NCBI GenBank assembly: GCA_030680415.1
Contig: JAUXVE010000004.1
Location: 1 to 64,000 of the forward strand
Length of the DNA: 64,000 nt
From: Rubrivivax sp.
GTDB taxonomy: Bacteria; Pseudomonadota; Gammaproteobacteria; Burkholderiales; Burkholderiaceae_C
Direction: 5' to 3'
The notes under the pieces were generated by a model. That model was not told the origin of the DNA, did no database searches, and saw nothing but the letters and a program-made list of their open reading frames with translations. Positions within the stretch are counted from its first letter, which is position 1, and each line of letters opens with the position of its first letter. Shown here piece after piece: positions 48,132 to 52,761 of this stretch. The position numbers were made by a program, and so were the translations under genes.

Positions 48132-48137
48132 TAGAAT
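48132..48137 (+). promoter_or_regulatory. Putative -10 (TAGAAT) for the thrS transcript
   Basis: TAGAAT ~50 nt before the candidate leader ORF. Confidence 0.45.
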
Positions 48138-48180
48138 TCGGCTTCGATCAACCAGCAAGGGCGAGAAAGGCATCCTGGTT

Positions 48181-48231
48181 ATGACACCGCGGACGTCGAC
48201 CTTTTTTGCCGAGGCCACGGCCCCGGCGTAA
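48181..48231 (+). CDS. Candidate Thr-rich leader peptide MTPRTSTFFAEATAPA*
   Basis: ATG..TAA 17 codons with 4 Thr codons (positions 2, 5, 7, 13); purine-rich GAGAAAGG upstream; followed by antiterminator/terminator-compatible segments. Confidence 0.55.
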   Translation: MTPRTSTFFAEATAPA

Positions 48232-48263
48232 GCGGCTGCGCTGTCGTTCCACCTTTCCCCTGA

Positions 48264-48292
48264 ACAAAGCGCGGCCACCCCCCGCGCTTTGT
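48264..48292 (+). terminator. Terminator-like hairpin ACAAAGCGCGG-CCACCCC-CCGCGCTTTGT before thrS (candidate attenuator)
   Basis: Perfect 11-bp stem; weak T-rich tail (cgtttct); 20 nt upstream of thrS ATG. Confidence 0.6.
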
Positions 48293-48312
48293 CGTTTCTG
48301 GAGATCAAGAAC

Positions 48313-50220
48313 ATGCTCAACATCACGCTGCCGGACGGCTCCCGGCGAGAGTTCCCCGGCCCCGTGACGGTGGCCGAGGTCGCGGCGTCCATCGGCGCCG
48401 GGCTGGCCAAGGCGGCGATCGCCGGCCGCGTCGACGGCAAGCTGGTCGACACCAGCCATGCCATCGAAGGTGATGCCCAGCTGGCCATCGTCACCGACAA
48501 GGACGCCGACGGCCTGGAGATCATCCGCCACAGCACGGCGCACCTGCTGGCCTACGCGGTGAAGGAACTGTTCCCCGAGGCGCAGGTGACGATCGGCCCG
48601 GTGATCGAGAACGGCTTCTATTACGACTTCGCCTACAAGCGCCCGTTCACGCCCGATGACCTGGAGGCCATCGAGAAGCGCATGGCCGAGCTTGCCGCCA
48701 AGGACGAGCCGGTGCAGCGCCGCGTGCTGCCGCGCGACGAGGCCGTCGCCTACTTCAAGGGCCTGGGCGAACACTACAAGGCCGAGATCATCGCCAGCAT
48801 CCCGGCCGGCCAGGACGTGTCGCTGTACCGCGAAGGCGGCTTCGAGGACCTGTGCCGCGGCCCGCACGTGCCGCGCACGGGCAAGCTGCGCCACTTCAAG
48901 CTGATGAAGGTGGCAGGGGCCTACTGGCGCGGCGACCAGGCCAACGAACAGCTGCAGCGCATCTACGGCACGGCCTGGGCCAGCAAGGACGAACTGCAGG
49001 GCTACCTGCGCATGCTGGAGGAAGCCGAGAAGCGCGACCACCGCCGGCTCGGCCGCGAACTCGACCTCTTCCACCTCGACGAACACTCGCCCGGCACGGT
49101 GTTCTGGCACCCGCACGGCTGGACGGTGTGGCAGCAGGTCGAGCAGTACATGCGTGCGGTCTACCGCGACAACGGCTACCTGGAAGTCAAGGGCCCGCAG
49201 ATCCTCGACCAGGGCCTGTGGGAGAAGACCGGCCACTGGGACAAGTACCGCGAGAACATGTTCACGACCGAGTCGGAGAAGCGCCACTACGCGCTGAAAC
49301 CGATGAACTGCCCGGGCCACATCCTGATCTTCAAGCAGGGCATCAAGAGTTACCGCGACCTGCCGCTGCGCTACGGCGAGTTCGGCCAGTGCCACCGCAA
49401 CGAGCCCACGGGCGGGCTGCACGGCATCATGCGCGTGCGCGCCTTCACGCAGGACGACGGCCACATCTTCTGCACCGAGGACATGATCCTCGATGAGTGC
49501 GTGGCCTACACGGCGCTGCTGCAGAAGGTGTATGCCGATTTCGGCTTCAAGGACATCATCTACAAGATCGCCACGCGGCCGGACGCGCGCATCGGCTCCG
49601 ACGAGATCTGGGACAAGGCCGAGCACGCGCTGATCGAAAGCCTGGAGAAGAGCGGCTGCGACTTCGTCGTCTCTCCCGGCGAGGGTGCTTTCTACGGCCC
49701 CAAGATCGAATACACGCTGAAGGACGCCATCGGCCGCCCCTGGCAGTGCGGCACGATGCAGGTCGATTTCTCGATGCCCGAGCGGCTGGACGCCGTCTAC
49801 GTCGCCGAAAGCAGCGAGCGCCGGCACCCGGTGATGCTGCACCGGGCCATCGTCGGCAGCCTGGAGCGTTTTATCGGCATCCTCATCGAACAGCACGCCG
49901 GCGCGCTGCCAGCGTGGCTGGCCCCGGTGCAGGTGGTCGTGGCCTCGATCACCGACGCGCACGCCGAATATGCCGCCAGCGTGGCGAAATCGCTGCAAAA
50001 ACAAGGAGTTAGAATCTCTCTGGATTTGCGCAACGAGAAAATCAACTATAAAATCCGCGAGCATTCAATGCAGAAGGTCCCGTTCATCCTGGTCGTAGGC
50101 GACAAGGAGAAGGCAAACGGGACTGTTGCCGTGCGCGCCCGGGGCAACCTGGACCTCGGTGTGATGGCCCTGGCAGACTTCCAGCAGAAGCTGCTCGGCG
50201 ACATCGCGCTGAAGACCTGA
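48313..50220 (+). CDS. thrS: Threonyl-tRNA synthetase
   Basis: TGS domain N-term; '[56 protein letters not shown]'. Confidence 0.98.
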
Positions 50221-50292: not shown

Positions 50293-50841
50293 ATCGCTAC
50301 CTTCATGGACCGTCGCACGCCGAACGCGGAGCGCAAGCACAGGTTGAACCGGGAAATCATCGCGCCGCAGGTGCGCTTGAACGGGGTGGAGAACGAGCCG
50401 CTGGGCATCGTTTCCACGATGGACGCCTTGCGCATGGCCGGCGAGCTGGACGTCGATCTGGTCGAGATCGCAGCCACGGCGGACCCGCCGGTGTGTCGGT
50501 TGATGGACTACGGCAAGTTCAAGTACCAGGAACAGAAGAAGGCGGCCGAAGCCAAGAGCAAGCAGAAGGTCATCGAGGTCAAGGAAGTCAAGTTCCGCCC
50601 CGGCACCGACGAGGGCGACTACGCGATCAAGATGCGCAACCTGCGCCGCTTCATCGCCGAAGACGGTGACAAGGGCAAGGTCACGCTGCGTTACCGGGGC
50701 CGCGAGATCACGCACCAGGACATCGGCATGCGCATGCTGGAGCGCATCCGCGACGAGTTGTCCGACGTGGCGATGGTCGAGCACATGCCCAAGCTGGAAG
50801 GGCGCCAGATGATCATGGTGCTGGCGCCGAAGAAGAAGTAG
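50293..50841 (+). CDS. infC: Translation initiation factor IF-3 (AUC start codon proposed)
   Basis: '[46 protein letters not shown]'; AGGAG at 50281-50285 is 7 nt from ATC 50293 and 19 nt from in-frame ATG 50305. Confidence 0.88.
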
Positions 50842-51584: not shown

Positions 51585-51666
51585 GCCCACGCTGCCGGGC
51601 CGGCAGGCGCGGCAGCCGCTCGAGCATCGTCACCGGGTTCGTGCCCGGCGACGCCCCTGCTTGCAC

Positions 51667-51699
51667 AGGCCGTCACCTCGGGGCGGCCTTCTTGTTTTT
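51667..51699 (+). terminator. Intrinsic terminator-like hairpin AGGCCG/CGGCCT plus T-rich tail just before pheS
   Basis: 6-bp GC stem with 11-nt loop followed by tcttgttttt, ending 7 nt before pheS ATG. Confidence 0.55.
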
Positions 51700-51705
51700 C
51701 GGACC

Positions 51706-52761
51706 ATGAACGATCTCGACACCCTGGTGCAGGCCGCGACGGCCGACTTCGACGCCGCCGCGCTGGGCGCCGAGCTGGAAAACGCCAAGGCGCGCTACCT
51801 CGGCAAGAGCGGCCGCATCACCGAGCAGCTCAAGAGTCTGGCGACGCTGCCTGCGGAACAGAAGAAGTCCCGCGGCGCCGAGATCAACCAGGCCAAGGCG
51901 CGCATCGAAGCGGCACTGCAGGCGCGCCGCGAAGCGCTGGCCGCCGCCGAACTCGAGCGCCAGCTGCAGGCCGAGGCGCTGGACGTCACACTGCCCGGCC
52001 GCCGCCGCGGCAGCGGCGGGCTGCACCCGGTGAGCCGCACCATCGAACGCATCGAGGGCATCTTCGCTTCGATGGGTTTCGACGTTGCCGAAGGCCCCGA
52101 GATCGAGACCGACTGGATGAGCTTCACGGCGCTCAACAACCCCGAGAACCACCCCGCGCGGTCGATGCAGGACACCTTCTACGTCGACATGAAGGACAGC
52201 GAAGGCCGCTGGCTCAACCTGCGCCCGCACACCAGCCCGATGCAGGTGCGGTACGCGCGCGCGCACGCGGCGAAGTACGCCGGCGAGCTGGCGCAGGGTC
52301 GCGCGATGCCCGAGATCCGCGTCATCGCCCCCGGCCGCACCTACCGCGTCGACAGCGACGCCACGCACTCGCCGATGTTCCACCAGTGCGAGGGCCTGTG
52401 GATCGGCGAGAACGTCAGCTTCAAGGACCTCAAGGTCGTCTTCATCGACTTCGTGCGCCAGTTCTTCGAGACCGACGATTTCGATGTGCGCTTCCGCCCG
52501 AGCTTCTTTCCCTTCACCGAGCCCAGCGCCGAAATCGACATCGCCTTTCGCAGCGGGCCACTGGCGGGCAAGTGGCTGGAAGTGGCGGGCTCGGGCCAGG
52601 TGCACCCGAACGTGGTGCGCAGCTACGGCCTGGACCCCGAACGCCACATCGGCTTCGCCTTCGGCATCGGGCCCGACCGGCTGGCGATGCTGCGTTACGG
52701 CATCGACGACCTGCGGCTGATGTTCGACGGCGACCTGCGTTTCCTGACGCAGTTCAACTGA
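51706..52761 (+). CDS. pheS: Phenylalanyl-tRNA synthetase alpha subunit
   Basis: '[21 protein letters not shown]', '[31 protein letters not shown]', '[18 protein letters not shown]'. Confidence 0.98.

Follow-up and report, generated by a model that had tools for sequence, protein, structure and literature searches.

The gene for threonyl-tRNA synthetase, thrS, is controlled in different ways in different bacteria. In E. coli, the synthetase (ThrRS) represses the translation of its own mRNA. In Firmicutes, T-box leaders before thrS bind tRNA directly, and a choice is made between a terminator and an antiterminator. Classical attenuation is, of course, also well described. It controls the pheM-pheST operon of E. 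coli through its synthetase's own amino acid. It is also found in Thr_leader, a threonine-responsive attenuator having a Thr-rich leader ORF and mutually exclusive antiterminator and terminator folds.

Here, we consider the region upstream of thrS in a stretch of 64,000 nucleotides from Rubrivivax sp. (GCA_030680415.1, contig JAUXVE010000004.1, positions 1 to 64,000), called the window. We hold it highly probable, from sequence and modeled folding, that this region encodes a ribosome-mediated, threonine-responsive transcription attenuator of thrS, switched by the supply of charged tRNA-Thr. Its parts, and the first two genes downstream, are these:

48132-48137, + strand: -10-like box TAGAAT, matching the TAnAnT/TAnACT box found in genus leaders
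48157-48171, + strand: conserved element at the leader ribosome-binding site, core AGAAAGG (genus alignment and leader-wide conservation)
48181-48231, + strand: Thr-rich leader ORF, MTPRTSTFFAEATAPA and stop (sequence; corresponding ORFs in about 200 leaders)
48181-48192, + strand: segment 1, inside the leader ORF, pairing with 48236-48247 (folding and covariation)
48234-48247, + strand: segment 2, containing the 5' arm of the antiterminator (48234-48242) and the 3' arm of the 1:2 pairing (48236-48247)
48264-48276, + strand: segment 3, where the 5' arm of the terminator (48264-48274) overlaps the 3' arm of the antiterminator (48268-48276)
48282-48299, + strand: segment 4, the 3' arm of the terminator (48282-48292) and a short imperfect U tract
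48300-48303, + strand: thrS Shine-Dalgarno sequence GGAG (sequence)
48313-50220, + strand: thrS, threonyl-tRNA synthetase, the putative regulated gene (TIGR00418, 703 bits)
50293-50841, + strand: infC (IF3), with an apparent AUC start (TIGR00168, 243 bits)

The leader ORF reads ATGACACCGCGGACGTCGACC...GCGTAA, and its 16 codons before the stop include four for threonine, as a sequence-only reading of this DNA had noted. That reading had also proposed a perfect 11-bp stem, which is indeed present (ACAAAGCGCGG at 48264-48274 with CCGCGCTTTGT at 48282-48292, closing a 7-nt loop), and an alternative 9-bp pairing with one G-U. The alternative pairing exists; its 3' arm, however, lies at 48268-48276 (GGCUGCGCU at 48234-48242 with AGCGCGGCC), not at 48269-48277. 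The stop codon of the leader lies 2 nt 5' of the antiterminator arm. The pairing of segments 1 and 2, which the earlier reading lacked, completes the classical set of 1:2, 2:3 and 3:4 structures.

These parts would work as follows. RNA polymerase would start near 48145, the position expected from the TAGAAT box, and a ribosome would load on the Thr-rich leader ORF. Should charged tRNA-Thr be scarce, the ribosome would stall at the threonine codons and cover segment 1, so that segment 2 would be available to segment 3; the antiterminator formed by the two would let transcription continue into thrS. Should charged tRNA-Thr be plentiful, the ribosome would proceed to the stop codon and cover segment 2, and the 3:4 terminator would form. 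Were the leader not translated at all, the 1:2 pairing would form, and the terminator with it. We infer that the leader is translated, that the hairpin actually terminates transcription and that it does so in response to threonine.

The anatomy itself, of course, is directly observed, as is its conservation. Upstream stretches from the 60 genomes searched in the same genus gave 55 leaders. All but one of these (54/55) have the MTPRT-type ORF, the stop, the antiterminator arm and the hairpin in nearly the same layout, which is more than chance would give. An ORF and a hairpin juxtaposed by accident are ruled out by this conservation together with the in-frame threonine enrichment described below. 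The exact sequence GGTTATGACACCGCG opens an MTPRT... ORF of 12-22 codons, mostly Thr-rich, in 53/55 leaders, and where ATG is replaced (L042) the replacement is GTG, so a start codon is preserved. After the stop, most genus leaders have an arm of the GGCCGCGC type, and then AGCGCGG...CCGCGCT with a T run. In one genus member (L010, 1200-1500) the mini-ORF is lost while the hairpin remains; the proposed sensor has here been lost naturally.

One might suppose that the hairpin simply terminates an upstream gene or tRNA gene, that thrS has its own promoter after the hairpin, and that the mini-ORF is incidental. The leaders of several families do adjoin a tRNA gene, a natural site for a terminator. 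In the genus, however, the distance from hairpin to thrS is usually 18-30 nt (about 20 nt in the window), and this includes the Shine-Dalgarno sequence. No promoter can fit in such a gap, and thrS mRNA must therefore traverse the hairpin. Further, a terminator for an upstream gene would leave the in-frame enrichment of threonine unexplained. This makes the explanation very unlikely. For the same reason, a thrS transcription start downstream of 48264, which the sequence-only reading had named as fatal to its proposal, is implausible, and a -10-like box lies upstream: in the genus, a TAnAnT/TAnACT box is found 41-88 nt 5' of the leader ATG in 53/54 leaders, a raw count without chance control.

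Two weak points had been raised against the locus. The first, a weak U tract, stands for the window's species, where the tract is short and broken and a generic terminator scan gave no flag. The second, the spacing of about 10 nt between the leader's Shine-Dalgarno sequence and its ATG, is less worrying because the pairing partner of AGAAAGG is the 3'-most stretch of the anti-Shine-Dalgarno sequence, for which just such a distance is expected.

Selection on the leader ORF can be seen in its codons. In 192 distinct leaders, with codons counted from the sixth onward, threonine accounts for 24% of the variable codons in frame, while ACN makes up 1.3% and 2.9% in the other two frames. The sixth codon is threonine in 82% of the leaders, and ACG, ACC, ACA and ACT are all used there. 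This, in turn, means that selection acts on threonine, beyond the letters alone. ACA and ACT are rare among threonine codons in nine ORFs of the window (11/229 and 9/229); despite this rarity, codon 2 is ACA in 98% of leaders and codon 5 is ACT in 94%, the window having ACG at codon 5. Some leaders (L237, L322, L067, L070) have only one or two threonine codons. In a sample of 64 hairpin-bearing thrS leaders taken across the order, 17 have a mini-ORF with at least three threonine codons, where shuffles predict 1.1; other residues give counts of 0-9 in the same leaders against 1.7-4.8 expected, which is near or modestly above expectation. The leader is thus a short ORF rich in codons for the amino acid of the gene that it precedes, and the conservation of start, stop and frame argues that it is translated.

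This bears on the view that the leader is an E. coli-style operator, with ThrRS binding the conserved 5' block and repressing its own mRNA. Such autoregulation is established in E. coli, and AGAAAGG...GGTTATGACACCGCG is here conserved beyond any clear needs of coding and pairing. An operator, however, does not predict selection that holds threonine codons to a single frame and leaves their third positions free, nor a stop codon beside an antiterminator arm, nor a terminator, and no tRNA-like operator was identified among the general folds inspected. We therefore regard this view as quite unlikely. The block AGAAAGGCA-N4-6-GGTTATGACACCGCGRACT is nevertheless nearly invariant in families of the Comamonadaceae and Oxalobacteraceae type, although the remainder of the leader diverges among them. 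It might serve a second layer of control, beyond base pairing and threonine codons, in which it is read by ThrRS or another protein, or acts through some effect on translation specific to MTPRT. We think such a layer unlikely; were it real, charging and a second signal would be sensed together.

The attenuator also requires folds that exclude each other, and these are found. Of the folds open to 48208-48278, the antiterminator has the lowest energy (z -3.4), a value equaled by 1/200 shuffles. The terminator likewise is the lowest-energy fold of 48242-48296 (z -4.9), equaled by 0/200, and the 1:2 pairing is that of the leader with an unoccupied 5' region (z -1.9), equaled by 10/200. The position of the ribosome was represented by folding each leader's transcript up to the 5' arm of the terminator without a ribosome or with one placed either at threonine codons 5/6 or at the stop, its footprint assumed to reach 13 nt beyond the first base of the A-site codon. 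Pairing of the terminator's 5' arm averaged about 0.58-0.71 with the ribosome stalled, 0.52-0.53 with it at the stop, and 0.29-0.43 without it; for the window's leader the values were 0.81, 0.41 and 0.17. In these folding models, the three positions thus correspond to on, off and off, the pattern that attenuation requires. When the stretch from stop to hairpin was shuffled, the effect of ribosome position was largely gone, the response being nearly flat. The contrasts gave p of about 1e-11 and 1e-27, which ignore relatedness and are not literal values. The trend has the same sign, with a smaller effect, in 46 divergent leaders from other families. Individual leaders are less tidy: their pairing is often non-significant, their duplex energies are noisy, and leaders of several families (e.g., L243, L321) deviate from the folding expected in this simple model.

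Covariation adds to this within limits. In the genus alignment the terminator stem pairs in 100% of cells and segment 2 with segment 3 in 85.6%; covariation within the genus is uninformative because the stem pairs in every sequence. Aligning 88 matches with the first model gave an alignment that includes two spurious rows and leans toward structure; in it, both partners have changed in 9/18 pairs (3.1 in shuffles), and such double changes occur in both the 1:2 and the 3:4 pairs. After the stop, GTTCGC is found in 40/137 leaders having the core GCGAAC (3 expected) versus 1/50 having the core GCGGAC. CCGCGC is found in 34/50 leaders with GCGGAC (4 expected), and is enriched with GCGAAC as well (33/137), which indicates a shift at the level of lineage rather than a strict rule. 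The near invariance of the genus leaves covariation in the antiterminator weak, and most changes are clade-inherited; that the antiterminator excludes the terminator in a manner dependent on the ribosome comes from folding. The sequence-only interpretation of a threonine-responsive attenuator is thus well supported, and those of its refuting conditions that were put to the sequences came out in its favor: threonine codons are conserved as codons, and the pairings are kept as they shift with lineage.

The leader ranges well beyond the genus. In its own family, models find it in 12/12 genomes, and it appears in several further families of Burkholderiales. GTDB genomes scanned with a sequence pattern yielded at least 118 stretches, the named ones mostly Comamonadaceae and Oxalobacteraceae; of the 118 matches listed, 116 lie directly 5' of thrS, and the other two stretches end early. 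Because the first codons are part of the pattern, only positions outside it count as evidence at these loci. In the wider set of leaders the ORF encodes 10-22 amino acids, and an intrinsic terminator, made up of a hairpin and a T run and found 18-117 nt 3' of the stop, lies between the ORF and the first gene in 199/202 leaders, the U tract of the window's own being weak. In distant families the ORF is altered, Arg-Thr (CGAACT) is usually retained, and runs of threonine are frequent; MFRTTTTTGK, MAFRTTTTGISTLA, MSFRTTTTGTLNLG, MQLNRTTTTS and MTTTRTTTFFNLG, which look unrelated, occur at the same site. Weak matches to models R1 and R2 within the order were counted only when thrS followed; ten (L231, L234, L235, L238, L239, L241, L242, L246, L247, L251) were left uncounted by this rule. 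Outside Burkholderiales, model R2 found nothing convincing in 369 genomes of the class; its two weak matches are generic terminators, and thrS is absent from the stretches retrieved with them.

In many other families (L213-L252; f5, f35, f44, f47, f51 among others) the leader immediately follows a tRNA gene, whose anticodon loop in L213-L252 was read by eye as tRNA-Val GAC. This placement suggests, from gene order, that tRNA and thrS leader are co-transcribed in those families. Over the tRNA gene of L249 (1370-1540), on the opposite strand, Rfam matches the antisense RNA HPnc0260, probably an artefact.

It might instead be held that the leader acts mainly through translation, by reinitiation or coupling at thrS, with termination playing little part. 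Short leader genes can boost downstream translation through reinitiation, an effect that peaks at 10-13 nt (PMC4833913). Here, however, about 80 nt and a stable hairpin separate the leader stop from the thrS start in the window, and the T run 3' of the hairpin is conserved. This mode of action is extremely unlikely.

Downstream of thrS come infC, rpmI, rplT, pheS and pheT, which perhaps are likewise controlled by the thrS leader; the cluster that thrS heads thus also encodes IF3, L35, L20 and PheRS. The infC start is apparently AUC, at 50293-50305 (ATCGCTACCTTCATGG after GGAG), with a GC-rich inverted repeat upstream. A non-standard start codon is expected for infC, where it belongs to the autocontrol of IF3. 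Between rplT and pheS (51640-51706) is a second terminator-like hairpin, AGGCCGTCACCTCGGGGCGGCCTTCTTGTTTTT, whose 5' side, GGCCGTCACC, is conserved in the genus. Different hairpins are similarly placed in Comamonadaceae (AAGGGCTAGAGCTTGAAAA...CTAGCCCTTTTTC) and Oxalobacteraceae (GCGGGGCA...TGCCCCGTTTTTG). No Phe-rich ORF was obvious at 51640-51706.

How, then, does this leader compare with described systems? No Rfam family matches it. With the covariance model for Thr_leader (RF00506) the window gave no match at the gathering score, and the leader none at E<=5; nor did Rfam give a T-box match in the window. In the open literature, no description of a thrS attenuator was found. An earlier prediction is possible in Lopatovskaya et al. 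2010 (Mol Biol 44:128), which PMC4833913 cites, since this is reportedly a comparative paper on attenuation of aminoacyl-tRNA operons.

The leader resembles the gamma-proteobacterial thrLABC attenuator in its Thr-rich ORF, its exclusive folds and its predicted response to threonine. That attenuator, however, precedes biosynthesis genes, senses threonine and isoleucine, and has another sequence; here, the gene is thrS. Like pheM-pheST, it would be a classical attenuator through which an aminoacyl-tRNA synthetase operon responds to the synthetase's own amino acid; there, Phe codons precede pheS, whereas here Thr codons precede thrS, the first gene of thrS-infC-rpmI-rplT-pheST. With the E. coli thrS operator it shares the gene and the gene cluster; there, binding of ThrRS blocks translation, whereas here translation of the leader is predicted to decide transcription. 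With the T-box of Firmicutes thrS it would share the sensing of tRNA-Thr charging through a terminator/antiterminator choice, which the T-box achieves by binding tRNA directly, without a leader ORF.

Thus, a classical mechanism, a switch for shortage of charged tRNA-Thr, very probably stands before thrS in much of Burkholderiales. If so, its leaders form a family open to automatic annotation, and a large order controls thrS by tRNA-Thr charging sensed through leader translation. This would be a third solution for thrS, beside repression by ThrRS in E. coli and the T-boxes of Firmicutes.
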